From: a virus
Length of the DNA stretch: 40,361 nucleotides
IMG/VR virus record: IMGVR_UViG_3300011116_001074
Location: 1 to 40,361 of that record
Reading direction: 5' to 3' (one strand)
Positions 11,059 through 36,181 of this stretch are shown one piece after another. The notes under the pieces were generated by a model. It had not been told where the DNA came from. It ran no database searches and saw only the letters and a list, made by a program, of their open reading frames with translations. How positions within the stretch are numbered: the stretch's first letter is position 1; each line of letters opens with the position of its first letter. The position numbers and the translations under genes are program-made.

Positions 11059-13632
11059 TCATTCGAAGCAACTCTCCAAGGTACTAATTTTCTCTACACT
11101 CCATTGTATCACATCTAGAATCCTTGTCAAGGGATCTTTGAAAGATTTCTCGAATTGTAGGTCTCGATTCACATACTTATCTAGGTGGAGTTCCTTGGGA
11201 ATGTGCTGCATGAATGCAATTACTTGTTCTTTTCCGCTCACTATAGAGAATGGATTAGGTTCCTTCAAGTAAATAAATTTAATTTTATCTGCTTCCGCAA
11301 TTTTTCTGTATTTCTTCTCTAGATTATTCTTCTCCAAATAATCATTGAATAACAGGGATGCCTTCACCGCAATAGGAGTTCCCTTCTTATATACTGCCGT
11401 GGTACATTCGTATCGATCCAGACCAGACACGCTGCGAGGAAACGCAATATCCTGTATGGAAGCCTTATTAAATTTATTCCTGAAATCTTCTGCAAATTCT
11501 TGAACGTCAAATTCCGTCTTATTCATAACAATACTAATAGCGGTTTTTAATGCTGTACGCACCATTAGTGGTGTAGAACTTCTAGCCGTCTCGATACCAA
11601 CAATCTTCAGTTCAGGAATTTTTAATAATACTCCGTCTTCGCCCATGATGTTGTTCAACATGTATCGCTTCTTGGCAGTCCAAATACCCTTGGTTGAGAT
11701 GGACTCTCGCTTCATGTGCATCTTTTGCTTGTAGGCATTCATGATATTGGCAAGTTCTTGGTACTTGGCTTCAATATAAGGTTCAATCTTGTCTTCGCAA
11801 ATCTTTTGTATCACCTCGGCAATTCGTTCTTGAGACGGCATCTTGCCAGCAAATACTTTCTGGACTACTTTGTCAAGACACAGATAGATGGAATCGGTAT
11901 CTGATGCTGCCACATAGTCTTTTCCTGTGGTACCAACCATCTTATTCACAAACTCGTTCAGGGCTTTCTCGATCCAACGAATACTTAACTGCCCAGAAAT
12001 GGTGATTGCTTCTGCGATATCTAGATCGTAGTAGCGGAACCATCGGTTTCCGATGGCACCGTAAGCGGAATTAAGTTGAATCTTGCGACACAACTGAAAA
12101 TTATTATACTTGGAGATCTTGTACTCTAGAAGTTCTCGTTCCTTCTTGGTTGCCGTGCTAGGCAGACTTTTAAGTTCTGCCTTGCAGTCCAACATCTTTT
12201 CCTTGTACATCTTTCGCTCTGAATACATGGTTTCCATTAGTTCAGGAAGAAAGCCTTGCTTCTCTCGTTTAAAGTAGATGCCGTTAGAAGTGATGGCAAT
12301 GTTATTTTCTTTGGCAAACTTCTGATGATCCTCTAGACGAATAAAATTTGTTTGTGCATCATAGGATTCTGGGTGTAGAATGTCTTCAGGCTTCAGAGTA
12401 TTTCGTTTACCCATTTTGTGCTTGGTCTCTGGAGACATATTATAATTAATAATTAAGTGAGGATACAGACTGTCCAAATCGAATGCCACAACCCATTCAT
12501 GCAAGCCCACCATAGGTTCTTTAACATACGCTCCCTGAAACTGCGTGTCTTGTTCTTCTCCTGAAACCTTTAGAGGAATTGCAATCTTTTTATCGTTCAG
12601 ATGGTGGTAGATAATAGAGTCCCAAGTCTTAACCTGAGAAAAGATGTCCATGAAATTAACCTTGGCGTTGTATGCCATTGCCACAACCAGTTCCATTAAT
12701 TTCAATTTCTTGTCCAGTCTCTGCACTAAGACAACGTCTTGATTGTTGTACTCCATGAACTTCTGCCAGTCCTTGGTGTAGAAGTCCTTGATGCCATCAT
12801 ACTCTTCGTAATTGGTCTTGGCTTCGCCTAGTTCCACGCTGGCAATGTTGTTCAGGCTGTACGACTCTTGATTCGTGTACGTGAATTTAATGTACAACTC
12901 ATAGTAATCCATGGTGGCAACACCAACCAAGTCGTATACATTATGATCCTTGCCCTTGCGATTAATTATTCGCTCACGCACTTGACGAAACGGAGACAAT
13001 CGCTTCGCAGTCTTTTGGTCTATAATCTTGGCGATGCGACCATACAGATACGGAATATCAAAGAATCTGATGTTCCAGCCAGTCACGATGTCAGGATAAT
13101 TCTGTTCCCAGTACTCCACAAAACTTTCAAGCATGTCTTGTTCGTCGCCAAACACATGGCATTCCACATCAGGAATACTGAAGTCGTGAATGGCAAACGA
13201 ATGCCGAACACCGTCCATCTCCACAGTAATGGCACTCACTCGCTCATTGTATTCGGTTAGGGAAGGAAATCCGTCTTCACATTCGGTTTCAATGTCCAGA
13301 AACGCAACACGCAAGTCTGCATAATTATAAGGAATTTCTCCAGAGTATCGCTCCGCAATATACTGGGCAACATAATCTTCGTTGCCGTATATCTGAAAGT
13401 TCTCAACATTTTCGTATGTTGTAAACACTTCTCTACAGTCAGCCACATCTCCAGGTTTATAGGCTTCAAGAGGAATTCCTTCTAGTGTATGCCACTCTAC
13501 GTCACGCTTCAGGGAAGGTGTGAATAGTGTAGGCTGGAATCGAATAGTTCTTGTGCTTCGCTTTCCGTTACAGTAATAGATTTCTTTGATGTCGTTTCCG
13601 ACAAGATGAACCGATGTATAGAATTCACTCAT
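11059..13632 (-). CDS. 43: Family B DNA polymerase (T4 gp43-like)
   Basis: 857 residues (T4: 898). It is the replicative polymerase with 3'-5' proofreading. Exonuclease motif I is AFLDIETE (D113, E115) and motif II is VTGWNIRFFDIPYL. The polymerase active site has AFDLDSLYPHL (near 382-392), the KIQLNSAYG helix, and AASDTDSIYL (near 577-586), with KKRY near 653 contacting primer-template DNA. No intein or intron interrupts it. The start overlaps the stop of the DUF1599-like gene (ATGA). The C-terminal residues should contact the gp45 clamp. Unlike in T4, regA is not next door but about 22 kb away. Confidence 0.96.
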   Translation of the reverse strand: MSEFYTSVHLVGNDIKEIYYCNGKRSTRTIRFQPTLFTPSLKRDVEWHTLEGIPLEAYKPGDVADCREVFTTYENVENFQIYGNEDYVAQYIAERYSGEIPYNYADLRVAFLDIETECEDGFPSLTEYNERVSAITVEMDGVRHSFAIHDFSIPDVECHVFGDEQDMLESFVEYWEQNYPDIVTGWNIRFFDIPYLYGRIAKIIDQKTAKRLSPFRQVRERIINRKGKDHNVYDLVGVATMDYYELYIKFTYTNQESYSLNNIASVELGEAKTNYEEYDGIKDFYTKDWQKFMEYNNQDVVLVQRLDKKLKLMELVVAMAYNAKVNFMDIFSQVKTWDSIIYHHLNDKKIAIPLKVSGEEQDTQFQGAYVKEPMVGLHEWVVAFDLDSLYPHLIINYNMSPETKHKMGKRNTLKPEDILHPESYDAQTNFIRLEDHQKFAKENNIAITSNGIYFKREKQGFLPELMETMYSERKMYKEKMLDCKAELKSLPSTATKKERELLEYKISKYNNFQLCRKIQLNSAYGAIGNRWFRYYDLDIAEAITISGQLSIRWIEKALNEFVNKMVGTTGKDYVAASDTDSIYLCLDKVVQKVFAGKMPSQERIAEVIQKICEDKIEPYIEAKYQELANIMNAYKQKMHMKRESISTKGIWTAKKRYMLNNIMGEDGVLLKIPELKIVGIETARSSTPLMVRTALKTAISIVMNKTEFDVQEFAEDFRNKFNKASIQDIAFPRSVSGLDRYECTTAVYKKGTPIAVKASLLFNDYLEKNNLEKKYRKIAEADKIKFIYLKEPNPFSIVSGKEQVIAFMQHIPKELHLDKYVNRDLQFEKSFKDPLTRILDVIQWSVEKISTLESCFE

Positions 13633-18093: not shown

Positions 18094-19728
18094 TTACACT
18101 GCTTCATTCATAAATTCACCATCAAACTTGGTTGGTGGTTGTGCATCTGCGCCTTTTGTTCCTTGTGGTCCTTGAAGAGCCATAATATACACATCCAGAG
18201 TTTCTCCGTGATTAAATGTGCCTGCCGTCACAACTCCGTTTATTGTGGAGAATTGATATAATATATTATTTCCATTGTTTCCGTAATTCAAAGCTGAGAA
18301 CGACACCATTCGCATTGGAGATTGTTCGCCGTATCGTCGAATCATCAACATTCCATTGTCTACTGCCCATCCATTCAGAAGACTCCAACTATAGAAATGT
18401 CCATATGCATCAATATTATCTATGGTCGTTCTATTAACGTAAAGTATATTAGTTCCATCCTGAAACCATAGGTTTCCTGTTGGATTTCCGCTTCCGCTGA
18501 GACCATTTTGGTTGTAATAATATCGGAATCCAACTGCGCCAGTAGCACCTTGAACACCTTGTGGTCCCGTTGCACCTATAGCACCTGCTCCTCCAGTAAC
18601 ACTCACATCCACTTGTTTGCCTTTACGAGTTACTGTAATATTATCACCAAGAAAATTAATATCGTTTACCGATTTAATAATTCTGGCTTTATCCTTATAG
18701 ATGCCTACTGCACCACCACCAGAACTAGCCATCAGTCCCATGTTATGGGCGACTCGATCAGCATCACTTTTGCTCTTAATTAACGTGGATAAAAATTCTT
18801 GTATTTTTTTCGGATCAAAGGTTAATTCGTTATCCTCTAATACCAAAGGATACTGGACAGTTAATACTGGCGATTCTCCAGTAGGACCTTGAGCACCTTC
18901 TGGACCAATCGGACCCTGATCTCCCTTCGGACCTTGGTCACCCTTTGGACCCGCCTTGCCCTGAGTTCCTTGGGCTCCACGAGGTCCAGATTTGCCTGTT
19001 TTGCCGTCCTTGCCGTCCTTGCCAGAGGCTCCAGGAAGCCCTTGGATGCCCTGTGAGCCGTCCTTGCCCTGAATGCCTGGAATACCCTGTTCTCCCTGTA
19101 CGCCTTGCTCGCCCCGAACACCCTGAATGCCCTGAACGCCCTGATCTCCCTTTTCTCCCTTTGGACCAGTAGGACCGTCTACTCCCTGCAGACCCTTGTC
19201 TCCTGGATATCCAGTCCATCCAGTTTCTCCTCTGTCCCCCTTGTCTCCCTTTTCTCCTTGGTCACCCTTTTCTCCAGCAATCCCCTGTAGACCCTGAACG
19301 CCCTGAACGCCATCGTCTCCACGAGGACCTCGTTCTCCTTGAGGACCAGCCCATCCGTCTTCTCCCTTGTCACCTTTAGGTCCAGGAATACCAGTTTCTC
19401 GAACAATCTCTCGTTCTATTCTGGTTTGTGGTTCTGGGTATTGGGTTTGTGGTTGAGGACGATACTGGAACAAATTATGTAATTCGTTTCTGTTTCCTGT
19501 AACTGCTATTATGTTTCCTTTGCTGTCACGAAACTGCCCAGCAGCCACACCGACTCCGTGCCGATAAACACGATCAGGAACATCATTGTCTGTTAGAGTA
19601 AACTGGGATCCTTGAGGGTAATTTTGCCAAGATTCACTTAGTACAAAACTAGATCCATAAGAATATTGTCCTTCCACATATCCTGGAGGAGTTTCTGAGG
19701 ATTCAAAATATTTATTGAAAGGTTTCAT
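18094..19728 (-). CDS. Collagen-like tail-fibre protein
   Basis: 544 residues. The N-terminal 110 residues form a distinct domain (FNKYFESSETPPGYVEGQYS and on). Residues 113-286 are an uninterrupted Gly-X-Y array of 58 triplets rich in charged pairs (GDKGEKGDQ type), which stabilise collagen triple helices without hydroxyproline. After a helical region (about 300-350, KKIQEFLSTLIKSKSDADRV, possibly the trimerisation coiled coil) comes a short GATGPQGVQGATGAVG block and a C-terminal beta-rich head. Such proteins are trimeric fibres of phages. The ATG overlaps the stop of the fibre-associated protease (ATGA), implying linked production. Confidence 0.88.
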   Translation of the reverse strand: MKPFNKYFESSETPPGYVEGQYSYGSSFVLSESWQNYPQGSQFTLTDNDVPDRVYRHGVGVAAGQFRDSKGNIIAVTGNRNELHNLFQYRPQPQTQYPEPQTRIEREIVRETGIPGPKGDKGEDGWAGPQGERGPRGDDGVQGVQGLQGIAGEKGDQGEKGDKGDRGETGWTGYPGDKGLQGVDGPTGPKGEKGDQGVQGIQGVRGEQGVQGEQGIPGIQGKDGSQGIQGLPGASGKDGKDGKTGKSGPRGAQGTQGKAGPKGDQGPKGDQGPIGPEGAQGPTGESPVLTVQYPLVLEDNELTFDPKKIQEFLSTLIKSKSDADRVAHNMGLMASSGGGAVGIYKDKARIIKSVNDINFLGDNITVTRKGKQVDVSVTGGAGAIGATGPQGVQGATGAVGFRYYYNQNGLSGSGNPTGNLWFQDGTNILYVNRTTIDNIDAYGHFYSWSLLNGWAVDNGMLMIRRYGEQSPMRMVSFSALNYGNNGNNILYQFSTINGVVTAGTFNHGETLDVYIMALQGPQGTKGADAQPPTKFDGEFMNEAV

Positions 19729-20828
19729 GTTAAAGTTCTTGCTGCTATATTAGTATGAAAAATATTTAAATTATATACGCTACTAGTATCACCAAAATCC
19801 TGAATAGCTTTTCTGATTTGTTTGACATAATAACCTACATGTGGACCGTAAGTAGCTGGACCTCCTTGATAAACTAGACCCAATAATAAAGGAACAACTA
19901 AATTATTACTATTTTTATATAACATTATAACTGGACTACCAGAATCCCAAGAAACTAAATTTTCATGAAATATTGCATGACTAGGATTAATAAAATATTC
20001 TGGGTATGATGTGAAGAACAATTCATTCTCTGGATACGCACCAGACCGACTTAATTCGTGGATAAGTGTTTTTTCTTCTTGATCTATTATTATTACTGGA
20101 ATTCCTCCAGGATAATACCCACCAGTATATACTAATGGCTTTTTTGATGGAGGATCTGAATTATTATAAAATGAATTATAACAAAAATAAGCTATTGATA
20201 TTGGCGTAATAGAAGGATGAACATCTGTGGCAAGTCGAACAACAACCAGATCAGTATTATCGATTTCTGTGCTACCAGCAACGCTAACTCCCTTTATTTC
20301 ATTGTTTGAGTTTAAAAAATAAAGAGAATTTCCAGCACGTGGATAAAATGTACCATGCTTAGTGTGAATTAGGTGTTTTGGTGTTATTAATGCTCCGTGT
20401 CCAGTTCCGACATCTTGTGCATTACCGACATGAGAATTGGAATTAAATAAAGGTATTGCGGTTAGTGTTATTCCGCTTAACCATCCAGTGGAAGCGTAAG
20501 TTGGCGTTGGAGTATTCCAACCATTTCTATATTGTTTCGCAGAAGCACTTAAGCCAGTAATTCTTGTATCTATTTCTTTACTATAAGAAAATGAAACATT
20601 CAGATCAGTAATATTATAATCAGAACCAGACAATGTTATTGGACAATATTCGTTAGTTTGAATTACTGACGGTGGTCTGTTGTCTGTTTCTAGAATAGAA
20701 TATTTGCGTTTATCTTTAATTACCACTATAGGTAAATCTGCAACTAAACGAGGATAATAAACACCACCAATATTATATGTGTATACTGGAGTTGCCGTAC
20801 TTATAATTTCTAATATTTTTATTTTCAT
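19725..20828 (-). CDS. Fibre-module protein with trypsin-like serine protease domain
   Basis: 367 residues. A divergent S1-type triad is visible in order: ALITPKHLIHTKHG (His158 in the TAAHC position), NTDLVVVRL (Asp193) and SWDSGSPVIM (Ser296 in the GDSGGP position). The first 30 residues (MKIKILEIIS...YYPRLVAD) resemble the N-terminus of the next upstream gene product, suggesting a common docking peptide on the virion. The gene lies between adaptor/IPT genes and the collagen-like fibre, so it is probably a virion component that cuts a host surface protein or matures fibres. Substitution of a Gly by Ser in the GDSG-G motif is unusual, so activity needs proof. Confidence 0.72.
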   Translation of the reverse strand: MKIKILEIISTATPVYTYNIGGVYYPRLVADLPIVVIKDKRKYSILETDNRPPSVIQTNEYCPITLSGSDYNITDLNVSFSYSKEIDTRITGLSASAKQYRNGWNTPTPTYASTGWLSGITLTAIPLFNSNSHVGNAQDVGTGHGALITPKHLIHTKHGTFYPRAGNSLYFLNSNNEIKGVSVAGSTEIDNTDLVVVRLATDVHPSITPISIAYFCYNSFYNNSDPPSKKPLVYTGGYYPGGIPVIIIDQEEKTLIHELSRSGAYPENELFFTSYPEYFINPSHAIFHENLVSWDSGSPVIMLYKNSNNLVVPLLLGLVYQGGPATYGPHVGYYVKQIRKAIQDFGDTSSVYNLNIFHTNIAARTLT

Positions 20829-20834
20829 AAAATT

Positions 20835-21236
20835 TTAAATATAAGTAAATGTTGTTGTGGCTACACCAGATTCTGTAGTAACACTAAGAGTGACTGTTCC
20901 TACAGATCCTGGTGGAATAGTAGCTATAATTTCTCCATCATCCAATAAAGTATAAGGAGTAGCCGAAGATGCTCCAATTTTAACACTAAGCAAATATACA
21001 AAATTAGTTCCAATAATACTAATAGATTCATTGCCAGTTATACTTCCTGACGAAGGAGATATAGAGGTAATAGTTGGAATTCCTATTAACGTGGCTACTG
21101 CATGTTTAGTCGGAGAATACCACAGAGTAACATACTTGGCAAATTCTTTTAATAGGATATTAGGATATTTAAATCCTGTGTCTTTTATGTTTGCATAAGA
21201 AACAGATGATATTATTTCTTGAATCTTTAATTTCAT
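20835..21236 (-). CDS. IPT/TIG-domain small virion protein
   Basis: 133 residues. After an N-terminal docking-like stretch (MKLKIQEIISSVSY...FKYPNILLKE), residues 53-133 form an IPT/TIG immunoglobulin-like domain: ITSISPSSGSITGNESISI, GTNFVYLLSVKIG and GTVTLSVTTESGVATTTFTY. IPT/TIG domains in phage tail proteins act as spacers or weak carbohydrate binders. The N-terminus resembles that of the fibre protease immediately downstream. The start forms a TAATG overlap with the upstream gene's stop. Confidence 0.8.
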   Translation of the reverse strand: MKLKIQEIISSVSYANIKDTGFKYPNILLKEFAKYVTLWYSPTKHAVATLIGIPTITSISPSSGSITGNESISIIGTNFVYLLSVKIGASSATPYTLLDDGEIIATIPPGSVGTVTLSVTTESGVATTTFTYI

Positions 21237-21646
21237 TAGACAACTCCATCTTCAACAGACACCCTTCCTTCTAGAAGTTTCTGAGAATACGTAGTTCCTA
21301 TAGAAAGTTTTATATCGTAAAAATATTTTCCAATAGATAGAGAATCGGTAGAATTTGGATCTAATTTTACTAAAATACCACCATTTGCTGGTGATGCATT
21401 ATAATTAGTATTTAAACTTATTCCGCCAATACCACTATATCCTGTAGTAAAACCGCCAGTATAACCGTATGTTAAGCCAGTAGTACTGGCAAATAAAACA
21501 GGATAGTCTGCAGTTTTATATTTCTTAAACTGCATTTGGGCAGAATACCCAGCAAGATTTACTGCGCTGTCGTCGTCAGTTAAGTACTGAAGCCAAAACT
21601 CGAAATTAGAGCCTTTATTGATTGATAAGTCATATTTTGCGGTCAT
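21236..21646 (-). CDS. Baseplate/fibre adaptor-like structural protein
   Basis: 136 residues. The start, KYDLSINKGSNFEFWLQYLT, then DDSAVNLAGYSAQMQFKK, matches a widespread beta-sandwich found at the N-terminus of phage baseplate or tail attachment proteins (pattern: inductive hydrophobic strand, KGS-F-F, then V-L-GY-A-M-). The rest is beta-rich with a Gly/Tyr segment, ending in YSQKLLEGRVSVEDG. It is first in the fibre operon and is preceded by a CTAAATA box only 4 nt from its ATG. Probably it anchors the following virion proteins. Confidence 0.68.
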   Translation of the reverse strand: MTAKYDLSINKGSNFEFWLQYLTDDDSAVNLAGYSAQMQFKKYKTADYPVLFASTTGLTYGYTGGFTTGYSGIGGISLNTNYNASPANGGILVKLDPNSTDSLSIGKYFYDIKLSIGTTYSQKLLEGRVSVEDGVV

Positions 21647-21660: not shown

Positions 21661-22905
21661 TTATCGATGTACGGTTTTTCTGCTTTTAAACTTCTTTTTT
21701 TGCGCTGGAAACAGAGCAGGTTTATGATTCTTCTTTTCACTCTGCTTTGCAGCCTGTTCGTCCATTTGACGAATAGATTCCAGTTGATTGGTTTGCTCAA
21801 AGAATTTTAGATATTGACCGAGATTTGTCTGAATTCGTTCTAGTTGATCTGCTGGTATTAGATTTTCTGTAATTAACTTCTTACAGGCAGCGTATCCCAT
21901 ATGAGGTTTTCCTGCATAGAATGCAGTGGCAGCAATTTCATCTAAAATAGCATACTTGTAGACATCTTCTGAAACAAACAAGATATCATCCTTTGGGTAC
22001 GGAATATCAAGAGCCATTTTTGCGTATAAGAAAGCTAGTCGTGGATGGTTCATCATTCTGTAGACTCGTGCAATCTGGTGAAGAGGCTCTGCACGATGAG
22101 GACGAAGCTCCCACGCTTCCAGAAATCCTTGCTGAATCTCGATCCACGGCTTGTTGGCAAGACCACGACACATGGCAATACGAAAAGCTGAATAGTATTG
22201 CTCTTCTTCCCAACCACCCATCTCTACACGCTTTCTGTAGGCGACTTCTGCTTTTTCCCATTGCTGAGAGTCAAAATAGCTCTGAGCCAGATAGAATTGG
22301 TATCTTACATTGTCTGGTTCCTTGAGCAGAACTTCTTCCAGCATGATGGCATCTCGTTTATACTTTTCGATAGGATCAATACCTACATTACGTGCTCCCA
22401 TGGTACGAGCAACAATTTTATATTTTCCTTCAAGTTTTCCTATTTTTGGAGTAGCAGTTTCCGCATTTGGCTTTGTTGGATACTCGTGAAGAATGCCTTG
22501 ATACCTCCAGCCAATACCTGTGCGGAAAATCTGAGTTCTCCACCAAGTAAACTCGCCACGACCAAACGCAAGAGCAAATGCTTCAACTTCCCCTACATTA
22601 AAGGGAAACTGAAACTCTCCTTCCACATAGTCGTCGGCATCAATCATCCATGCCCAGTCTGCCTTGCCGTCACAGAGTTGTAGAGCTTCTGTGCGGTTAT
22701 CGCCAAAACTTACCCATGGGCGTTCATGAAGTTCTCCAGGAATACCTTTTTCGGCAAAGAAGTTTTTAATTAATTCTTGAGTTCCGTCTGTGGAACCAGT
22801 ATCCACAATGACCCAGTAATCCACATACTTATAGATGGAATCCAGGCATTCTTTGATAATGTGAGTTTCGTTTTTAACAATCATCGATAGGCATAATTTA
22901 GGCAT
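21661..22905 (-). CDS. Family 2 glycosyltransferase with C-terminal TPR-like region
   Basis: 414 residues. The GT-A fold starts with LCLSMIVKNETHIIKECLDS, VIVDTGSTDGT and MIDADDYVEG (DxD at 89-91), which bind the nucleotide sugar and metal. From about residue 190 the protein is helical, with repeated patterns of the kind VRYQFYLAQSYFDSQQWEKA, typical of tetratricopeptide repeats in bacterial GT2-TPR proteins. It transfers a sugar to an unknown acceptor. An 11-bp tandem repeat spans the start codon. GGAGAT provides a ribosome binding site. Its composition is closer to the phage backbone than to the AT-rich genes upstream. Confidence 0.88.
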   Translation of the reverse strand: MPKLCLSMIVKNETHIIKECLDSIYKYVDYWVIVDTGSTDGTQELIKNFFAEKGIPGELHERPWVSFGDNRTEALQLCDGKADWAWMIDADDYVEGEFQFPFNVGEVEAFALAFGRGEFTWWRTQIFRTGIGWRYQGILHEYPTKPNAETATPKIGKLEGKYKIVARTMGARNVGIDPIEKYKRDAIMLEEVLLKEPDNVRYQFYLAQSYFDSQQWEKAEVAYRKRVEMGGWEEEQYYSAFRIAMCRGLANKPWIEIQQGFLEAWELRPHRAEPLHQIARVYRMMNHPRLAFLYAKMALDIPYPKDDILFVSEDVYKYAILDEIAATAFYAGKPHMGYAACKKLITENLIPADQLERIQTNLGQYLKFFEQTNQLESIRQMDEQAAKQSEKKNHKPALFPAQKKKFKSRKTVHR

Positions 22906-22922: not shown

Positions 22923-23708
22923 TTATGTATAATGAATTTGGTTAGAAAGTTTTTTAAATGTTTCCATAATTCCGTTTTTTAATCCAATAAATTTTATAGA
23001 TGGTATATCGCTATTACCACAATAAAATTCTAATTGAGTTTTATTTTCTAAGATAATTGATGTTTTGTGTGTATCCAAGGAATTAATCATATTGGCTATA
23101 GTCTTTAAAGTATATTTTTCTTCATAACAGCAATTTATATCCTTTAACGGATCCTTATTGTTTATATAATATTCTACTATAGAGATTAGGTCTTGCATAT
23201 AAATAAAATCCATAATTTTATTGGCATGAATAATCATTGGTTCTTTTTTAATGTATCTAATAATATTAGCTTTGATAAAGCTGGTGGATAGTTCATTCTC
23301 ATCAAATACACCAAATATTCTTAGATTATAAAAATTTTCTGTATTTTGTACAGATTCTGCTATTTTGGTTTTACTCGTTCCGTAAGGAGTATCTTTCATA
23401 AATGTTTCTGCACCAGAACCAAATGATATTAATTTTTTAAAGTTATGTTTATTAATAAGTAAATTGTTATACATTGCTACATTTTGATGAAATATAGAAG
23501 AATCATCTTGACGTAATCTACTACCACCCACAATAGCAGTATGCAAAACCACATCAAAGTGTCTTTCGTTAAACCATTCGCAAGTGGCATCATAATTACT
23601 CAAATCAAAATTTTGTCGTGTTATTGTGGTTATATTATGATTGTCTTTGAACTTACTATAAAGACTTTTAGCAATATAACCGTTTCCGCCTGTTATTAAC
23701 ATATTCAT
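22923..23708 (-). CDS. NAD(P)-dependent nucleotide-sugar epimerase/reductase (extended SDR)
   Basis: 261 residues. A Rossmann start, MLITGGNGYIAKSLY (GGxGYIA), and the catalytic pair YGTSKTK (YxxxK) define an extended short-chain dehydrogenase. SFGSGAETF supplies the upstream catalytic Ser. The overall look is that of the RmlD/GDP-fucose-synthase type, which reduce or epimerise 4-keto sugars. Next to an acetolactate-synthase-like enzyme, it could do the final keto reduction of a branched sugar (as YerF does in yersiniose synthesis); this is inference. The ATG overlaps the TPP-enzyme stop (ATGA). Confidence 0.82.
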   Translation of the reverse strand: MNMLITGGNGYIAKSLYSKFKDNHNITTITRQNFDLSNYDATCEWFNERHFDVVLHTAIVGGSRLRQDDSSIFHQNVAMYNNLLINKHNFKKLISFGSGAETFMKDTPYGTSKTKIAESVQNTENFYNLRIFGVFDENELSTSFIKANIIRYIKKEPMIIHANKIMDFIYMQDLISIVEYYINNKDPLKDINCCYEEKYTLKTIANMINSLDTHKTSIILENKTQLEFYCGNSDIPSIKFIGLKNGIMETFKKLSNQIHYT

Positions 23709-25471
23709 TTCATTATTTCTTTCATTTCTGTTGTATCAAGATACGGAAACATATTTTCTAACGACGTTGATACAATTTTGCCTTCAGCATCTTTAGAGCT
23801 CTGTACTCGTGGAATTAATAATTGATTTTCTGTCATCATAATTTCACATAATACTGGACCCTCTGTATTTAAAACTAAATTGATATTATCTTCTAGTTCT
23901 GTGTTATTTGATAATTTAAAAGTCTTGAATCCATATGCTTCTGCTAATTTTGTAAACTTAGGAGAGCTAATTCCACTTTCGTTATTAGAACCTATGTAAT
24001 TTCCGCTGAATAGATTGTCTTGCATTAATGTTATAGCTAAATAACCATTATTATTTAATACAAAAATCTTCAAAGGTATATTGTTATGAATTACTGTTTG
24101 TAGTTCTTGAATATTCATTTGTAAACCACCATCACCAGAAATAAGAATAATATCTTTTTTAGGATTTGCATAATATGCTCCAATAGCTCCAGGCAACCCA
24201 AATCCCATAGAACAACAAGCACTAGAAGTAAATAATCTATTGTTGCCATTCATTTGTAATGATTGCATAGTACAAGTATAGCTAGTTCCCATATCTGTTA
24301 CTATTATATTATTATCAGTTAAATTCGATGATAATACTTCCATAAAGTAAAAAGAATTAATATTATTAATATTTGTTTTATATTCTGGTTGGAATACTGG
24401 ATATTTTTGTTTCCAGGATTGGGTTTTATTTATCCAATTGTTCCAGTTTGGTATACTTTCATTTTTTAATCTTAATAATATTTTGGGAAAAAATACATTT
24501 AAATGTTCTACTATAGGATAATCTATTTTAATAGTAGGTTTTTTTATTTCGTTTTCGTCTATATCAACCATTATTTTGATCGATTTTGGTGAAAACAAAT
24601 CAGATCTATAACCAATATTAGGAATAGACATTCTGCTTCCTAAAATTAATAATAAATCTGCATTTTGAACTGCAAAATTTGCTGCACGTTCTCCTAATAA
24701 ACCAAAATTTCCAACAAATAATGGATCTTGTTGATTCATTAAATCTTTAGATATCCACGTAGATATTACTGGTATTTGTAATTTGGTTTTTAATTCAATA
24801 AATAATTTTTCTGTTTGTGATAAATGTATGCCATTACCTGTAATAATAACAGGAGATTTAGCTTTTAAAATAACATCAATTATGTCTTCTAAATTATATT
24901 CAATTGTGATGTTTTTTATTTCAGTATTAATTTCTTTTATGTTTATTTTACTATTTTGTATATCTAATGGAATATCTAACCATACTGGACCTTTTCTACC
25001 AGACACTGCAATATTATAAGCGGTATCCAAATGAAATTGTAAAGTATTTGGATCTGTTACTTGAACTGCATATTTAGTGATGGGTTTTACCATACTAATA
25101 ATATCGCATTCTTGTACTCCTAATTGTCTTAATTTTATATTTTCTAAACTATTAAGAGATTGATTTACTGGTACTTGACCAGAAATTATAATCATTGGAA
25201 TAGAGTCTTGATAAGCACCCAACACACCAGTAATAGTATTAGAAGAGCCAGGACCATTCGTAACTAATACGCATGCTGGTTTATTTGCTATTCTCGCATA
25301 TCCTTCTGCTGCCATGGCACATGCTTGTTCGTGATAATTACAGATATATGTAAATGGTTTTTCTCTAACGGAATTTAGTAAATGAGCAGCTGCTCCTCCA
25401 GATACTGAAAAAATAGTATCAACACCTTTAGATAATAGATAATCAAATATATAATCAGAAACTTTAATCAT
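23705..25471 (-). CDS. Thiamine-diphosphate enzyme, acetolactate-synthase-like (O-antigen cluster type)
   Basis: 588 residues. It has the full three-domain layout of acetolactate-synthase relatives. The N-terminal PYR domain holds the catalytic glutamate E48 (NYHEQACAMAAEGYAR) and the TNGPGSSNTITG loop. A central domain follows, and the C-terminal PP domain carries GDGGLQMNIQEL to LNNNGYL (about 445-475), the thiamine-diphosphate/magnesium motif. It could be amino-acid metabolism, but it lies inside a sugar cassette and resembles enzymes of O-antigen loci. Of these, YerE transfers a two-carbon unit from pyruvate to a 4-keto-3,6-dideoxy sugar. I therefore infer branched-chain sugar synthesis. 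It is very AT-rich and overlaps both neighbours. Confidence 0.85.
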   Translation of the reverse strand: MIKVSDYIFDYLLSKGVDTIFSVSGGAAAHLLNSVREKPFTYICNYHEQACAMAAEGYARIANKPACVLVTNGPGSSNTITGVLGAYQDSIPMIIISGQVPVNQSLNSLENIKLRQLGVQECDIISMVKPITKYAVQVTDPNTLQFHLDTAYNIAVSGRKGPVWLDIPLDIQNSKINIKEINTEIKNITIEYNLEDIIDVILKAKSPVIITGNGIHLSQTEKLFIELKTKLQIPVISTWISKDLMNQQDPLFVGNFGLLGERAANFAVQNADLLLILGSRMSIPNIGYRSDLFSPKSIKIMVDIDENEIKKPTIKIDYPIVEHLNVFFPKILLRLKNESIPNWNNWINKTQSWKQKYPVFQPEYKTNINNINSFYFMEVLSSNLTDNNIIVTDMGTSYTCTMQSLQMNGNNRLFTSSACCSMGFGLPGAIGAYYANPKKDIILISGDGGLQMNIQELQTVIHNNIPLKIFVLNNNGYLAITLMQDNLFSGNYIGSNNESGISSPKFTKLAEAYGFKTFKLSNNTELEDNINLVLNTEGPVLCEIMMTENQLLIPRVQSSKDAEGKIVSTSLENMFPYLDTTEMKEIMK

Positions 25472-25857
25472 AATTTATAAACAAAATTTAAAGTATCATT
25501 CCAATTCTCAAATCGATAGGCATTATCATCAACATATAACATTGCTCTTGGTTTTTCTGAAGTAATATCACTAATATAATCTAATATATTATGTTTAAAA
25601 AGCCACTCTTCTACTAATTGTTTTCCAGTTTTTCCATTTACTAAAGGTCTGTCTGGTTTTGCTTTAGCAGTAAAAATAATAATTTTATATTGTTTAGATA
25701 AGGTTTCTATTGCTTGCAAAGAACCAGGGATTGGTTCTCCATAGCAAGTTCCATCGTGCCATCCTTTATTAGCACAATGAATCACCCCATCAAAATCAAT
25801 AGCTATGTTGTTTTTGTCATTTTCGAAGCCTGGAGGAAATTGTATGTTATTTTTCAT
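25468..25857 (-). CDS. Small HAD-superfamily hydrolase
   Basis: 129 residues. Motif I is AIDFDGVIH (DxDG), motif II is IIFTAK, and motif III/IV is KPRAMLYVDDNAY, the usual small HAD phosphatase arrangement with no large cap. It probably removes a phosphate from a small metabolite, perhaps a sugar phosphate or nucleotide by-product of the surrounding pathway. Context, not sequence, suggests the substrate. Both ends overlap neighbours, so it is a fixed member of the operon. Confidence 0.82.
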   Translation of the reverse strand: MKNNIQFPPGFENDKNNIAIDFDGVIHCANKGWHDGTCYGEPIPGSLQAIETLSKQYKIIIFTAKAKPDRPLVNGKTGKQLVEEWLFKHNILDYISDITSEKPRAMLYVDDNAYRFENWNDTLNFVYKL

Positions 25858-26530
25858 TTTTATGAATCGTTAATAAAATTGTTCCAGAAATCACACCATC
25901 TAATTCTTCTGATACTTGTTTTATAATTTTTGCAAATCCAACATCCCCTGGTATTGTGACACAATGAGATATTCCATCAATATTTCTTATCATGCCACCT
26001 TTAAGAAATACAATTAAATCTTCATCTTGTTTATTATTAATTATGCTGATATCATTTATAGTTTCTATTGTTATAGTGCAGTTTGCGAAATGATAAGTAT
26101 TACTATTATTTATTTCGGGTTCATTTATCCATAAACATTGATTGGTTTTTAATTCCTCAAATGTACTATCTTCGTATGGTTTATGAGAACGACCATATTG
26201 ATCGTTTAATCTAACTAAATCATGCTTATCTTTTGGTGTTTCGATTTCAAATATCCAAGCACCCTCATCGGACAATGCTTTAGTAGAATGAAATAATCCT
26301 CGTCTTATCATAACTTTATCTAACGAGTTTAATACACGACTATCTGCTAAAAATGATACTTGAGCTTTCCCGTCCAATAAAACTAATCCAGTAGTCTTTT
26401 TAGGATGACAGTGCATAGAAGTGCTTTGATTGGGAGCAATATATAAAAACCATAAACCAACATCTTCATTTTCGTAGGCTAAGTATTCAAATCCCCATGG
26501 TTTTTTTACAATATTAACATCATAACTCAT
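25847..26530 (-). CDS. Cupin-domain protein (sugar isomerase-like)
   Basis: 227 residues. The start KPWGFEYL and MHCHPKKTTGLVLLDGKAQV recall mannose-6-phosphate-isomerase-type cupins, with H-x-H metal ligands and a later His in GLFHSTKAL. A second, weaker cupin-like half may follow from about 140 (TYHFANCTITIE, VTIPGDVGFAK), so a bicupin is possible. It could isomerise or epimerise a sugar in the pathway or simply bind one. The TAATG overlap with the upstream PfpI-like gene shows tight coupling. Confidence 0.72.
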   Translation of the reverse strand: MSYDVNIVKKPWGFEYLAYENEDVGLWFLYIAPNQSTSMHCHPKKTTGLVLLDGKAQVSFLADSRVLNSLDKVMIRRGLFHSTKALSDEGAWIFEIETPKDKHDLVRLNDQYGRSHKPYEDSTFEELKTNQCLWINEPEINNSNTYHFANCTITIETINDISIINNKQDEDLIVFLKGGMIRNIDGISHCVTIPGDVGFAKIIKQVSEELDGVISGTILLTIHKNEK

Positions 26531-27078
26531 TAACTTTTAGTTCTTTCATTATGGACCTGATAACCAACACGTAACCACTCTCCCATAAAATCGTAATGGG
26601 GGCAAGATATAATATTGCCATCAATTACTACAGGCTCTCTGCTGTAAGTAGCACCTGCATTTTCAATATCAACATCAATAGAATAATAACCAGAAACTGT
26701 TCTGTCCTTTAGTATCTTAGCAGAAATTAATAGTTGTGCGCCGTTACATACCGAAAGGATTGTTTTATTCGCTGCATTCCATTCTTGTACAAATTTAAGG
26801 ACTCCCTTTTCTTGTCTCAATTTCTCTAATGCCTTAACTCCACCAGGAATTATTAAAAGTTCGTAATTATTGAGGTAGTTTTGCCGTGTTGTTTCGTCTT
26901 CAAAAATTATAGTCTCAACATCACATAACATATGAGTGCCTAAACTACCCCAAATCTTACCAGCTTTATTAGCCATCAGTGTCACATTAAATCCCGCTTC
27001 CTTTAAACTATAAAAAGGATAAATCAATTCGTGATCTTGAAATTTTTCCCAAGTAATAATTAATGCGTTTTTTACCAT
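26530..27078 (-). CDS. DJ-1/PfpI-family protein
   Basis: 182 residues. LIIPGG near 75-80 and the nucleophile elbow SVCNGAQLL (C111) define the DJ-1/PfpI fold, and E17 (QDHELIYPFYSL) sits where the conserved Glu of the family lies. The residue after the Cys is Asn in place of the usual His, so protease or deglycase chemistry may differ. Members are deglycases, glyoxalases or amidases. Inside a nucleotide-sugar operon it may act on a reactive keto-sugar intermediate, which is speculation. It overlaps the dehydratase gene. Confidence 0.8.
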   Translation of the reverse strand: MVKNALIITWEKFQDHELIYPFYSLKEAGFNVTLMANKAGKIWGSLGTHMLCDVETIIFEDETTRQNYLNNYELLIIPGGVKALEKLRQEKGVLKFVQEWNAANKTILSVCNGAQLLISAKILKDRTVSGYYSIDVDIENAGATYSREPVVIDGNIISCPHYDFMGEWLRVGYQVHNERTKS

Positions 27079-28022
27079 ATAAATTTATCCTTATAATATT
27101 CTACTATATTTTTAATTTCTGTATCAAAATGTTTAACTGGAACCCAACCAAGAGATCTTAATTTAGAATCGTCTAATGCATATCTTACATCCTGTCCGAC
27201 TCTATTGCAAGAGAAATCTATGTATTTTTCAATATTTTTTTCATCTATATTATTTGAAATTAATATTTTCTTTACTGTATCTATGTTACTTTGTTCAAAA
27301 CCACCGCACACATTGTATATTTCGTTAGTAATACCACATTCTATTATTTTAATTATTGCAGAGGCAGTATCAGCAGCATGAAGCCAATTTCTAATCGGAG
27401 ATCCTCCATTATGCAATGGTATCTTTTTTCCTAGATGAAGATATTTGCAAACTTTCGGTATAAGTTTTTCTACATATTGACCAATTCCATAATTATTTGT
27501 TGGTCTCACAACAACATACGGAATAGCATATGTCCTTGCCCATGCCAAAATTAACATATCCGCTGCTGCTTTAGTTGCAGCATAAGGGTTTGATGGTTTT
27601 AGTAGATGAGTCTCTGTGTGTGCGCCTTCTTCGATATCTCCATAAACTTCATCAGTAGAGAAGTGAAGGAGAATTGGTTTTTTTCCACTTTCTTGTCTGT
27701 AGTTCTTTATGAGTTCAAGGATATTATGAACTCCATTTATATTTGAGTGGACAAAATCATCGCTGTTTGCGATAGAGTTACCAACGTGAGTTTCTGCCGC
27801 AGTGTTGATGACGTAATCACAGTCATACAAAAACTTCAAATCATTGATATCGCAGTGTACAAAGGAGAAGTTTTTGTGTTGTTTAAACTCTTCTAAAAGT
27901 TCATCATTGGCGGCGTATGTGATCTTATCAACTCCCTTCACATACCATCCCCTTTCTAAACATTGTCTAGTTACATAAGAACCAATAAACCCCAAACATC
28001 CTGTCACATATACTATTTTCAT
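27072..28022 (-). CDS. NDP-glucose 4,6-dehydratase (RmlB-like)
   Basis: 316 residues. The extended SDR carries VTGCLGFIG (cofactor loop 7-14), AAETHVGNSI, FSTDEVYG with the TDE catalytic trio at 123-125, YAATK (Y147, K151) and RPTNNYG...QYVEKLIPK, the RmlB signature for dTDP-glucose 4,6-dehydratase. The product is an NDP-4-keto-6-deoxy sugar, which would feed the E1-type 3-dehydrase encoded at 30421. The nucleotide (dTDP, CDP or other) cannot be read from sequence. It is part of the overlapping cassette operon. Confidence 0.88.
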   Translation of the reverse strand: MKIVYVTGCLGFIGSYVTRQCLERGWYVKGVDKITYAANDELLEEFKQHKNFSFVHCDINDLKFLYDCDYVINTAAETHVGNSIANSDDFVHSNINGVHNILELIKNYRQESGKKPILLHFSTDEVYGDIEEGAHTETHLLKPSNPYAATKAAADMLILAWARTYAIPYVVVRPTNNYGIGQYVEKLIPKVCKYLHLGKKIPLHNGGSPIRNWLHAADTASAIIKIIECGITNEIYNVCGGFEQSNIDTVKKILISNNIDEKNIEKYIDFSCNRVGQDVRYALDDSKLRSLGWVPVKHFDTEIKNIVEYYKDKFIW

Positions 28023-28024
28023 GA

Positions 28025-28870
28025 TTATTTTTTTTCTATAAAAGATATATTATGATTGAATGTTTCTTCACTAATACCACGTCTTGATCTAAATATAACT
28101 GTTTTGTCTGTAACTCTATCTCCCGAATGGGTAATATGAAAAGGTTCCAAAATATTATTATAATTTAAAATACATTCTTCTGGATTTCTATCATGATTCA
28201 GAATATTTAAATTCAATTCTCTAGCAATTATGCTAAATAAGGTTTGATCGTGTCTTCCAGTTCCTAAACCATTAGGACATGTTCCATCGTCCATGAAGTT
28301 TCTAATTTCTTTAGAAAGTTCATATAAAGGATTAATGTATTTTTCCTTCATCTCTTGGCACAATCCCTGGAATCCTGCATCTATTCCTAACGTGTTATCA
28401 TCAAGAATCCATTGTTTATCTGGAGTATTTAGGTTTAATTTATTAATTATATAGCCTGGAGTCATCCATTTTATAGAATGACCACAATCTGTTAGGAAAT
28501 ATTTATGTTCTTTGATATGATCAAATAGGCTATTTAGCGGTTTTAAAATTGTACTTCCTGAATCAAGATATAAAACATACGGAAACATATCTAATGCTTG
28601 TTTTATTACAACTGCTTTCCAAGAAAAAAGACCTTTGATCCATCTACCATTATTGCAATGTATAGGAGTTATTATTAGTGGATGTACCTTTTCAACATCA
28701 TAAATACTAACTTTATTAATAGTTTTTAGTTTATTTATTTGTTCGGATGTTAATCCCAAATCAAATACCGCTATTTGATTTAATTCGTTTTTATTGTGCT
28801 TGAATATAGAACCTATTAAATTTAATAATACTGGGTAGTGGTTGCTGTCTGCTGCTGTACAAAAATACAT
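28025..28870 (-). CDS. Glycosyltransferase-like protein (GT8/DUF1647-like)
   Basis: 281 residues. The start, FCTAADSNHYPVLLNLIGSI, and AVFDLGLTSEQINKL are typical of GT-A proteins annotated as GT8-like or DUF1647. VLYLDSGSTI takes the DxD position, with Ser between Asp and Gly, and GRHDQTLFSIIA is the usual C-terminal acceptor/catalytic segment. The sugar and acceptor are unknown. AAGGATT precedes the ATG. It lies directly upstream of the dehydratase. Confidence 0.72.
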   Translation of the reverse strand: MYFCTAADSNHYPVLLNLIGSIFKHNKNELNQIAVFDLGLTSEQINKLKTINKVSIYDVEKVHPLIITPIHCNNGRWIKGLFSWKAVVIKQALDMFPYVLYLDSGSTILKPLNSLFDHIKEHKYFLTDCGHSIKWMTPGYIINKLNLNTPDKQWILDDNTLGIDAGFQGLCQEMKEKYINPLYELSKEIRNFMDDGTCPNGLGTGRHDQTLFSIIARELNLNILNHDRNPEECILNYNNILEPFHITHSGDRVTDKTVIFRSRRGISEETFNHNISFIEKK

Positions 28871-28873
28871 ATA

Positions 28874-29653
28874 TTAATCCTTCCATTCTATAATAGTGTT
28901 AGTAGTTCCCCAATAACCAGTTATTAAATTTGATATGTGAATAGGAAAATTTTCTTTTGGTAAAGAATTTATATATTTCCACCTTTTATGAATTTGTTCG
29001 TGTCCACTATACCATGCATCTTTAAATTTAACATCCTTTTCAAAATAATAATTAAAGTGTTTAAATGTAGGTGTTAGTATTTTGGCTGGTTTGTGTTCAC
29101 AATTAAATAAAGTTGGTGGTTCATGGGTTACAAAATGTTCACCTTCCCAATCCCAAATACGGCGGATTCCGCTAGAGCCTGCCCACTCTCCTACTGCGCA
29201 TAAGGTTTTACCACAATAACATTCTGACAAAAATGCTCCTACTTTAATATTATTTTCGGACATTTCCTTTTCTGCTTGATTCATTCCTTCTGATGTCCAC
29301 TGTTCATCAATATCGAATTGCCAAAGAAAACATCTATCTGTTATTTTTTTTACTTCGTCAATTGCACGATTAACTTGGTGGTCTTTAGAATTCCAAAACC
29401 CATTTGAAGAAACATATATTAATTTTGATTCTTGTTGTGATAATTCTTCTAAAAATTCTTTTGTTCCGTCTATACTACTCCCATTATTGTGATATTCTGG
29501 AGGCATTTGCTTACACCATTTAGTGCTTCCGTTTGATTGAGAAGCACCTTCAACGACAATCCACTTATCACAATTATTCAATATAAATCTAAATTGGTCG
29601 TTGTGTAATAAATGGTGTAGACCATTAAAAATAATACTAAAAATAATTCTCAT
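28874..29653 (-). CDS. Glycosyltransferase-like protein (GT17-like)
   Basis: 259 residues. The pattern WIVVEGASQSNGSTKW, IDGTKEFLEEL, KDHQVNRAID and LWQFDIDEQW (DxD) resembles GT17 N-acetylglucosaminyltransferase-like proteins common in marine phage and bacterial glycan loci. A C-terminal HFNYYFEKDVKFKDAW segment is typical of the group. Strong ribosome binding site AGGAGA inside the preceding gene's end. The assignment to GT17 is from recall of the family pattern. Confidence 0.68.
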   Translation of the reverse strand: MRIIFSIIFNGLHHLLHNDQFRFILNNCDKWIVVEGASQSNGSTKWCKQMPPEYHNNGSSIDGTKEFLEELSQQESKLIYVSSNGFWNSKDHQVNRAIDEVKKITDRCFLWQFDIDEQWTSEGMNQAEKEMSENNIKVGAFLSECYCGKTLCAVGEWAGSSGIRRIWDWEGEHFVTHEPPTLFNCEHKPAKILTPTFKHFNYYFEKDVKFKDAWYSGHEQIHKRWKYINSLPKENFPIHISNLITGYWGTTNTIIEWKD

Positions 29654-30407
29654 CTATATCTCCTAATGATTTTACTGTTTGAAATTTTGAACCATAATTA
29701 AACGTTTCTGCTGGACTCCATACTACAAAATGTTTAATATTAGCTATCGTCCATTTATTCATACACAGATGAAGAGGACCTGTATTAACTGCAATTATGC
29801 TTTTAACATTTTTTGAAAGTTTTGCTATTTGTACAACAGATAGATTATAATCCATAGTACAAGGAACATTATTTACTTTTCTTGTTGTGATAAATTTTTT
29901 ATTTGTTGCTTTTAATTTTTGAATTAAATCATCACATTCCTGTTCAAAATTTGGAAAAGGTATACTCATATTTTGACTATTTATGAATAAATATTCATAC
30001 ATTTCGTCATGAATACATGTCTCTTCTAGAGTCTTTTGATTATAAATTAAATCTTCTTTTGAAGTAAATGGACATTCAATATTCATTATCTTAGATAATA
30101 ACTGTGCTAATATTAAAAAGAATGTTCCTTGGTCTGAATCTTTTCCGTATAATATAGCAGAATCTCTACAAATTTGTCCATAGTCGTAAGCACCTATCCA
30201 AGTATTTATTGGCAGTTCTTCAGAATCAAAAGCATTTACTAAATCAACTCGATCATCGCCTATTAATTCTTTTAATTGACTATGATATTCTGATTTACAT
30301 AAAAAATTAAATTTAATATTATTACGTTTTGTAGCATTTATTAAAAAATGCAATGCTTCTATACAATCGCCTAAATGATAATAATTATAACAATTAATAA
30401 TTCTCAT
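29637..30407 (-). CDS. Heptosyltransferase-like protein (GT9-like GT-B fold)
   Basis: 256 residues. The start NYYHLGDCIEALHFL, with Gly-Asp before a helix, and SIIAVNTGPLHLCMN match the N-terminal and nucleotide-binding ends of ADP-heptose transferase relatives, though the protein is short. A role in LPS-type glycan assembly is plausible. A strong promoter (TTGACT-N16-TATAAT) ends only 5 nt before its ATG and there is no Shine-Dalgarno, so it may be read from a leaderless early transcript. It ends in a 17-nt overlap with the GT17-like gene. Confidence 0.6.
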   Translation of the reverse strand: MRIINCYNYYHLGDCIEALHFLINATKRNNIKFNFLCKSEYHSQLKELIGDDRVDLVNAFDSEELPINTWIGAYDYGQICRDSAILYGKDSDQGTFFLILAQLLSKIMNIECPFTSKEDLIYNQKTLEETCIHDEMYEYLFINSQNMSIPFPNFEQECDDLIQKLKATNKKFITTRKVNNVPCTMDYNLSVVQIAKLSKNVKSIIAVNTGPLHLCMNKWTIANIKHFVVWSPAETFNYGSKFQTVKSLGDIDENYF

Positions 30408-30412
30408 ACTAT

Positions 30413-30440
30413 ATTATACTCTATTTATTAAAAAAGTCAA
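30413..30440 (-). promoter_or_regulatory. Sigma70-like promoter TTGACT-N16-TATAAT inside the glycan cassette
   Basis: TTGACT (30435-30440) lies in the last codons of the E1-type gene and TATAAT (30413-30418) just after its stop, 16 nt apart. The next ATG follows the -10 box by 5 nt. It would transcribe 30407 downwards through the sugar genes. The same architecture occurs before RNase H. Confidence 0.68.
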
Positions 30441-31758
30441 GAAGAACTTTCTCAATATAATCCAATTGTTCGTCTGTAATAACTGGACTAGTTCCTAAAA
30501 AGAAAGTATCTGTTGTTATTTTTCTAGCATTTGGAAAATTATTAATCACATCTTTTTGATTCATCATTCCACTATATGCGGGTTGTAACATAATATTACC
30601 AGCAAAATAAGGTCGTGTTTGAATTTTATGGCTTTCAAAATGATCAACAATATCTATTCTTTTAAACGGACTTCCGTCCTTAATAGTTATTGCGAATGCA
30701 AACCAAGAAGGATCAGATCCTTCTGTTGCTTTTGGCAAGATAAAGTACTGATCATATTTTGAAAACATATCAAATAAACGTTTATGATTATGTTTTCGTA
30801 ATTCTATAATCTTAGGAAGTTTCTTTAATTGAGCTAAACCCATAGCTGCTTGTTGGTCTGTTGGTTTCAGATTGTATCCAATCTCATCATAAACATATTT
30901 GTGATCAAAAATTTCATTAGGTAGCGCAGGAAGCCAATTTGAAAATCTATTTTTGCATGTTCCGTTTTTAAGGAAATTTGCTTTTTGACCAACACAATAA
31001 CATCCTCGTCCCCATTCACGAAAACTTCTTGTTACAATCTCTTGTTCGTGTGTATTACAAGCAACAAATCCACCTTCTCCCATGGTGATATGGTGTGCAG
31101 GATAAAATGAACAACTAGTCATCTCTCCAAAAGAACCAAGTGGTCTTCCTTTATAGGTACTTCCTAATGCGTCACAACAATCTTCTAATAGCAATAAATC
31201 ATATCGTTTAATGATGTCCATCAATTGATCCATGTTAGGAGGATTACCTAATACATGAGCAAAGGTTATTACTCTACATCCTTCTTTTGCTTTTTGTTCC
31301 ACTTGTTCTAGATTCAAATTTAATGTATCTAGATCAATATCTACAAATACTGGTTCAAACCCTACTTGAAAAATAGGATTAATTGTTGTTGGAAATCCAG
31401 CAATTGGTGTTATTACTTTAGTTCCTTTAGGAAGATTATATAATCTTTTTGATGTAAGAGCAGACATCATAATAAGATTAGAACTACTACCGCTATTAGT
31501 AAGAATACCAAAATCCTTTCCAACATATCGTGGGAATAGTTGTTCAAAACGAATCCCATTTTGACCAAGAACTAACCACCCGTTTAGTAATGCTTTAGTA
31601 GATTCTGTATATTCTTCTGCTCCAAAATAAGGGCCAGCATATTGCACCCAGTCTTGTCCAGGAATCCACAACTTTGTTGCATTCTTTTTTTCTATAAACT
31701 CTTCAATTAATTTTAAAATTTCTTCCATATTATTACAACTGAAATATTGCTGCTCCAT
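30421..31758 (-). CDS. E1-type NDP-4-keto-6-deoxyglucose 3-dehydrase (RfbH/DdhC-like, PLP + [2Fe-2S])
   Basis: 445 residues. It belongs to the DegT/DnrJ aminotransferase fold but has the hallmarks of E1: SFYPAHHITMGEGG puts His222 where aminotransferases have the PLP lysine, and C195, C253, C255 and C268 form C-X57-C-X1-C-X12-C, matching the E1 iron-sulphur motif except for the last gap (usually 7). The enzyme removes the C3 hydroxyl of a 4-keto-6-deoxy sugar and normally needs an E3 reductase, which is absent here and may come from the host. It leads to 3,6-dideoxyhexoses such as those of O-antigens. A later ATG (31728) is also possible; neither has a clear Shine-Dalgarno. Confidence 0.9.
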   Translation of the reverse strand: MEQQYFSCNNMEEILKLIEEFIEKKNATKLWIPGQDWVQYAGPYFGAEEYTESTKALLNGWLVLGQNGIRFEQLFPRYVGKDFGILTNSGSSSNLIMMSALTSKRLYNLPKGTKVITPIAGFPTTINPIFQVGFEPVFVDIDLDTLNLNLEQVEQKAKEGCRVITFAHVLGNPPNMDQLMDIIKRYDLLLLEDCCDALGSTYKGRPLGSFGEMTSCSFYPAHHITMGEGGFVACNTHEQEIVTRSFREWGRGCYCVGQKANFLKNGTCKNRFSNWLPALPNEIFDHKYVYDEIGYNLKPTDQQAAMGLAQLKKLPKIIELRKHNHKRLFDMFSKYDQYFILPKATEGSDPSWFAFAITIKDGSPFKRIDIVDHFESHKIQTRPYFAGNIMLQPAYSGMMNQKDVINNFPNARKITTDTFFLGTSPVITDEQLDYIEKVLLDFFNK

Positions 31759-32341
31759 TACGAAGTGACCAATTCTCCCATAATAGCGTAGAAGAGGTTT
31801 TTAGTTCGTGATAATTTGCATAGTTTTTAATGTCATTTATATCATCTAGTGCAATTATTGCATTTTTGGTCAGAAACGGACAAACACATTTTAATTCTGA
31901 TTGTCCAGAAAAAGGAGAACCATCTATTAAAACAAAATCAAATTTTATATTATATTGATTGACAATATCTTCTATTGCATTTGATTTGTATTGTTGAGAC
32001 ACGGATATACACTCATCATACCAAGATCGTATTAATTCTAAAGGATACATATTTAAATTAGTTGGTGTTGTTTTGTAGAATAATTCTACTTCTGACCACG
32101 ACATCCAAGAATCAACTAACGTAGAAGTTCCATTTATTCCAATACCTCCTTTTTTTAATAAATTCATCTGATGAACATATACTCGGTCTGGGTGATTTTC
32201 TATACTAAATAGTTTTTTAGCCTTTATACATTGAGTAGATCCTTCTCCTGTACCCCCACCAATTTCTAAAGCAGTATCACAATTTTCTGAAACTGTTGTA
32301 ATAAATTTACCAAAATTATCGTTTATTGAAATTTCTATCAT
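31733..32341 (-). CDS. Class I SAM-dependent methyltransferase
   Basis: 202 residues. Motif I ALEIGGGTGEGST (24-36) binds SAM, IENHPD matches the acidic end of motif II, and FVLIDGSPFSGQ and IIALDDIND form motifs IV/VI, recalling the CmcI/TylF-type sugar methyltransferases. In this cassette it most likely O-methylates a sugar. AAGGAAAA gives the ribosome binding site. It overlaps the E1 gene by 26 nt. Confidence 0.8.
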   Translation of the reverse strand: MIEISINDNFGKFITTVSENCDTALEIGGGTGEGSTQCIKAKKLFSIENHPDRVYVHQMNLLKKGGIGINGTSTLVDSWMSWSEVELFYKTTPTNLNMYPLELIRSWYDECISVSQQYKSNAIEDIVNQYNIKFDFVLIDGSPFSGQSELKCVCPFLTKNAIIALDDINDIKNYANYHELKTSSTLLWENWSLRNGAAIFQL

Positions 32342-33013: not shown

Positions 33014-33014
33014 A

Positions 33015-36179: not shown

Positions 36180-36181
36180 AA

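Follow-up and report, generated by a model that had tools for sequence, protein, structure and literature searches.

Our main point is less a single protease than the interval between the adaptor-like gene and the collagen-like tail fibre gene of a T4-like phage, an exchange site with its own putative docking tag; a candidate serine protease is the most surprising cargo of that site. We propose, with a probability of about 0.55, that this protein is a swappable tail module combining a docking segment with a divergent S1-like protease that would cut a host surface protein. A fuller version, which we put at somewhat under even odds, holds that the protease is active and mounted on the tail through an interchangeable docking tag, such that the cutting of host surface proteins would be one exchangeable entry function beside glycan lyases and adhesins. 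The first ~50 residues would constitute the docking segment, common to the adaptor-to-fibre proteins of this phage group, and residues ~112-345 a divergent chymotrypsin-fold (S1-like) protease, probably kin to a secreted-looking planctomycete-type bacterial protein. During assembly, the docking segment is predicted to fix the protease to the adaptor/baseplate-fibre complex; on contact, the protease domain, facing the host, would cleave a receptor or a surface layer made of protein, whereas the modules that relatives carry in its place may cut or bind glycans. In this account we infer the S1 fold, catalysis, the direction of gene transfer, the virion location and the substrate.

The window analysed here comprises positions 1 to 40,361 of the IMG/VR record IMGVR_UViG_3300011116_001074 (Table 1). 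It belongs to an uncultured T4-like phage, whose DNA polymerase shares 47% identity with cyanophage gp43 and which also encodes UvsX, a DnaB-like helicase and a clamp loader. As a test of a cyanobacterial host, psbA was sought in seven large relatives (118-157 kb) and not found, and the only cultured phage found to carry a homologue of the adaptor, close to baseplate wedge genes, is the Pelagibacter phage HTVC008M. The T4 late-promoter motif TATAAATA occurs at a frequency no higher than chance. Between the tail and replication genes lies a long run of sugar-nucleotide/glycan genes on the minus strand (22923-36317; epimerases, a thiamine-diphosphate enzyme, a cupin), which is partly very AT-rich, and the genes adjoining the glycosyltransferase vary between relatives.

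Table 1. Features of the tail-fibre locus and the second trypsin (positions in the window)
Feature	Coordinates	Strand	Evidence
Second trypsin, 254 aa, canonical, membrane-anchor-like N terminus	1810-2574	-	Pfam Trypsin 3.6e-14
Collagen-like tail fibre, 544 aa, downstream edge of interval	18094..19728	-	Pfam Collagen 1.7e-30; PHROG tail fibre families
ATGA overlap, protease stop/fibre start	19725..19728	-	Sequence
Putative S1-like serine protease module (P0001), 367 aa	19725..20828	-	ORF; L002 homologue; planctomycete homologues L124, L142
Protease-like domain, ~residues 112-345	19794..20495	-	Co-linearity with planctomycete proteins; four-sequence alignment
Ser296 codon, candidate nucleophile, within SWDSGSPV	19941..19943	-	Invariant in 4/4 aligned sequences; inside 31-residue run identical in L002
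Asp193 codon, candidate	20250..20252	-	Invariant in 4/4 aligned sequences
His158 codon, candidate general base	20355..20357	-	Invariant in 4/4 aligned sequences
N-terminal anchor-like segment, protease residues 1-50	20679..20828	-	Held-out profile E=6.2e-5, residues 1-56
IPT/TIG protein, 133 aa, same N-terminal anchor (residues 1-38)	20835..21236	-	Pfam TIG 9.7e-13; anchor profile E=3.2e-6
Adaptor-like conserved protein, 136 aa, upstream edge of variable interval	21236..21646	-	phrog_1084 9.7e-18
Conserved glycosyltransferase/TPR protein, upstream of adaptor	21661..22905	-	Pfam Glycos_transf_2; L019 copy 99% identical

The preliminary description, made from the letters of the window, had delimited the protease gene correctly, and the neighbours that it named (adaptor/IPT on one side, collagen fibre on the other) and the ATGA overlap with the fibre are all seen in the locus. 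The adaptor-like protein has a second, weaker match to phrog_3304, 'L-shaped tail fiber protein assembly' (3.9e-8). That the protease frame is coding is supported by a 75% identical homologue in the same gene order in the IMG/VR contig L002 (8409-9503) and by a dN/dS of ~0.40 for the pair.

To characterize the interval, 80 loci were gathered through the conserved upstream glycosyltransferase and their downstream genes catalogued. Between adaptor and fibre these relatives carry either no gene or one to a few, and MK[LIV]K[IV] is the start of most of them. Seventeen such N termini from other loci, with this phage and its close relative excluded, were made into a profile of ~50 residues, which recovers both the tail protease and the IPT protein, so that the previously claimed resemblance between their N termini is borne out by sequences from elsewhere. 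At E<=1e-3 the profile matches 45 of 8,087 ORFs, a count of ORFs rather than of independent genes, some being from overlapping loci of one contig, and every match begins at residue 1-7. In the loci that include the adaptor gene, all the matching ORFs start where the adaptor ends, give or take a few bases, or further downstream; in L007 and L008, where the adaptor lies outside the stretch covered, the three matches are upstream of the fibre. When each of eight locus groups was left out in turn, the proteins were recovered every time, the weakest at 6.8e-4 and the best listed at 2.3e-18, the latter with a close relative still in training. A control in which residues 5-60 were shuffled while the MKxK start was kept reached at best E=0.19. 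Together, these results tie a short N-terminal segment to a single place in the tail locus. Several relatives have ORFs of 46-93 aa that consist of the anchor only. In L025 a 45-aa ORF (11668-11805), related to the 791-aa anchored protein that L027 encodes but truncated, stands ahead of a complete 1041-aa anchored gene, as would be expected had a module been lost with only its anchor left behind.

That this segment acts in docking is suggested by analogy with other tail-anchored modular receptor-binding proteins, which likewise possess an N-terminal segment common to tail modules and occupy a site of the tail-fibre locus that varies between relatives. In the Klebsiella phages KP32, KP36 and phiK64-1, modular receptor-binding proteins/depolymerases are docked by a conserved N-terminal anchor (PMC6872550; PMC8262889). 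The present system would resemble these in its short conserved docking segment, its exchangeable C-terminal enzyme and its several modules per tail; it differs in carrying a protease-like domain in place of a polysaccharide-degrading one and in the sequence of its anchor, for which we claim no homology. Because the ~50-residue N terminus belongs to a position-locked family of interval modules, and because pectate-lyase tailspikes sit in this interval in relatives, the presence of the protease in the virion, proposed earlier, is better supported than could have been known from the window itself. Receptor processing at the tail tip, likewise proposed earlier, would be a reasonable supposition.

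The same evidence bears on whether the protein could instead be a soluble enzyme outside the virion, acting for example in the infected cell or after lysis and merely placed in the fibre operon. A precedent of sorts lies in the window itself, whose second, ordinary trypsin is encoded near the ribonucleotide reductase, far from the tail genes, and has a membrane-anchor-like N terminus. However, this trypsin lacks the N-terminal anchor of the interval modules, which the tail protease bears, and the tail protease has no apparent signal peptide; we therefore consider a non-virion role improbable. The second trypsin is 83-98% identical across seven viral contigs and finds no match among 50,697 phage records. 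It shares an S1-type triad with the tail protease, but is canonical, and Smith-Waterman alignment of the two yields chance-level similarity.

Between adaptor and fibre, the relatives encode giant, hydrolase-like or TIG-repeat proteins, or none at all. The interval is empty in L021, L031, L033 and L041; elsewhere it holds proteins of 401 and 511 aa (L032), 566 aa (L028), 1041 aa (L025, L027), ~2040 aa (L023, L030; with TIG in L023) or 2513 aa with 10 TIG domains (L008/L020), as well as pectate-lyase tailspikes (L026, L030; PF22442 1e-26, PF12708) and a tailspike-like protein (L023) that are all devoid of the anchor. The anchored 401- to 1041-aa proteins have no Pfam or PHROG match. The 2513-aa anchored protein (L008:208-7749, equal to L020:11671-19212; also L007:1-5034) has a C-terminal region of ~1600 aa without a Pfam match, whose C-terminal end, judged by eye, is similar to anchored proteins of 511-571 aa in L011, L028, L032 and L026; it looks like a large glycan-active enzyme. 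The cassette genes have a GC content of 32-33%, against 46% for the fibre and 41% for the polymerase, and between the window and L002 the protease and IPT genes diverge at a dN of 0.17-0.22, against 0.04 for the adaptor, 0.02 for the fibre N terminus and 0.004 for the glycosyltransferase. These variable contents, the AT-richness of the cassette and its faster divergence than the neighbours make up the pattern of a module exchange site.

The gene order also raises the alternative of a maturation protease, whose substrate would not be a host protein but the protease itself, the IPT protein or the collagen fibre, cleaved as the tail is assembled. The gene is co-encoded with both potential partners, following the IPT gene on the same strand after a 6-nt gap and overlapping the fibre. 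Self-cleaving ends of phage tail proteins are known from the Peptidase_S74-type chaperones. An 'autocleavable' part has also been described in depolymerases (PMC6872550). Nevertheless, the fibres of L006, L007 and L008 have an N terminus 89-91% identical to that of this phage, while other sequences stand in the place of the protease, whose gene is absent ahead of the fibre in the stretches covered and finds no match elsewhere in their records; fibre maturation thus seems independent of it. Moreover, the protein has no Pfam match to the self-cleaving chaperones, nor was a C-terminal domain of the S74/G2 type found. A role in maturation is hence improbable, and the swappable module directed at the host remains our preferred reading.

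Turning to the protease domain, the triad residues lie where the preliminary description had placed them: H158 in ALITPKHLIHTKHG, D193 in NTDLVVVRL and S296 in SWDSGSPVIML. Their order is S1-like, as is their spacing of 35 and then 103 residues. A generic three-box S1 pattern, composed after sight of the tail protease, was applied to a set that includes 855 ORFs of at least 250 aa and picked out nothing but the tail-protease family and the genuine trypsins encoded by these phages; it matched none of 200,000 shuffled versions of the protein. The L002 homologue, the only other phage copy found, keeps all three residues, and its longest run fully identical to the window protein surrounds the Ser box. 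Searches with the protein alone in phage records and viral contigs gave no matches, the alignment of the two phage proteins found no homologue in genome contigs, and a plasmid search returned chance matches only; a degenerate DNA pattern for SWDSGSPV retrieved the known contig plus chance matches in viral (L017) and cellular genomes (L102-L110). Proteolytic receptor processing at the tail tip was earlier described as unusual for a T4-like phage, which holds within the collections covered: no other phage protein like this one occurs among the 50,697 phage records, or in IMG/VR save for the one contig. We likewise found no tail-mounted trypsin-like protease of a T4-like phage in the open-access literature.

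Beyond phages, a profile of the two phage proteins was run through 392 planctomycete genomes. The best match, a 460-aa open frame in L124 (P0003), comprises two co-linear segments with a per-genome HMMER E of 0.0036, a value that by itself is not significant across 392 genomes. In the first, RAGTLVSPRHIVFAAH is aligned to the His box; in the second, LPMLHLDQEEKALVRDL...ASFAETLIGGDSGNPAFLI is aligned to IPVIIIDQEEKTLIHEL...AIFHENLVSWDSGSPVIML. BLASTP of the tail protease against this protein gives 47.4 bits and E=3e-10 as a single pair over query residues 116-312; allowing for the size of the translated genome set, we estimate ~2e-3. A second relative, L142 (P0004), reached via L124 and not via the phage protein, extends the alignment. 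The bacterial sequences are 23-25% identical to the phage ones; the triad of His, Asp and Ser does not vary among the four, the DQEEK segment and DSG[SN]P are common to both groups, and the planctomycete boxes are canonical (SPRHIVFAAH, GGDSGNP). When only L124 and L142 are used to build a profile, the phage proteins rank first among 8,087 ORFs, at 8.7e-8 and 1.8e-6, with the next unrelated ORF at 0.16; being the converse of the first match, this result is not wholly independent of it. The planctomycete proteins (L124:1363-2742 and L142:1501-2718, both on the minus strand) differ from the phage ones in that they start with a signal-peptide-like stretch, have a different N-terminal domain and keep the canonical boxes AAH/AKH and GGDSG; both are secreted-looking and resemble a divergent S1-like family with SPRH...AAH/AKH and GGDSGNP. 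The specificity of the three-box pattern, its failure on shuffles and the invariance of the triad in two bacterial homologues at such low identity indicate that the triad did not arise as a motif by chance.

Assignment to the S1 family proper is a subtler matter. The tail protease has no match in Pfam (including PF00089 and PF13365), NCBIfam, PHROG or PDB sequences, and L124 has none in Pfam. Against a panel of HtrA (DegP/Q/S) and trypsin proteins, hhalign brought the triad into register over 180 columns, with E=0.019 and a probability of 2.5%, and 2 of 150 shuffled controls scored as well. AlphaFold models reached a pLDDT of 25.7 with the two-sequence alignment and 29.7 with a domain alignment including the phage's own trypsin, an input that is partly circular and in which MAFFT placed Asp193 two columns off. 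With its bacterial relatives absent from Pfam and the hhalign match weak, membership in the S1 family is argued by the canonical boxes and their order rather than by a profile match. The original designation as a divergent S1-like serine protease is thus supported by the motifs, by their order and spacing and by the canonical H and S boxes of the bacterial homologues, but not by a significant S1 profile match or a confident structure. If the marginal profile match, the lack of any family or structure match and the uninformative models were taken at face value, the three boxes might have arisen by convergence in a binding protein rich in beta structure. Yet the bacterial homologues carry the SPRH-AAH and GGDSGNP boxes in register, and the order and spacing of the triad are those of S1 proteases; we thus deem such convergence very unlikely. 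Further features shared with the chymotrypsin/HtrA proteases are the G-x-L-[IV]-[ST]-P-x-H and DSG[SN]P boxes and a helix-like C-terminal end.

Whether the putative protease is catalytic is a separate question. At the oxyanion-hole position before Asp-Ser-Gly (Gly193 of S1 proteases), both phage proteins have Trp294 where both bacterial homologues have Gly, and Thr-Lys stands before His158 where small residues are usual (Thr-Lys-His for Ala-Ala-His). These two substitutions make catalysis uncertain, and because of Trp294, the strongest rival to our reading, ahead of a maturation protease or a non-virion enzyme, is an inactive adhesin: an S1-like fold, docked on the tail, that would bind a protein of the host surface but leave it uncut. 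Adhesion-type domains (TIG repeats) do indeed occur among the modules of relatives at the same site. However, the triad is kept both at 75% identity in L002 and at the far lower identity of the bacterial homologues, and the Ser box falls in the longest identical run of the two phage proteins, of 31 residues, both of which speak against a pseudoprotease; we consider it unlikely, at roughly one chance in five. Human mesotrypsin has Arg at the oxyanion-hole Gly position and is nevertheless active, and hence Trp294 is compatible with catalysis by the tail protease.

More generally, the anchor provides a short sequence tag for finding further unrecognised tail modules, and already flags several large proteins that have no Pfam or PHROG match. 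The virion-borne enzymes of tailed phages in the literature cited here act on polysaccharide or peptidoglycan. If our reading of the tail protease is true, protein cleavage would join the phage entry toolbox, mounted where relatives mount lyases or adhesins, and this would point to hosts with protein as their outermost barrier.
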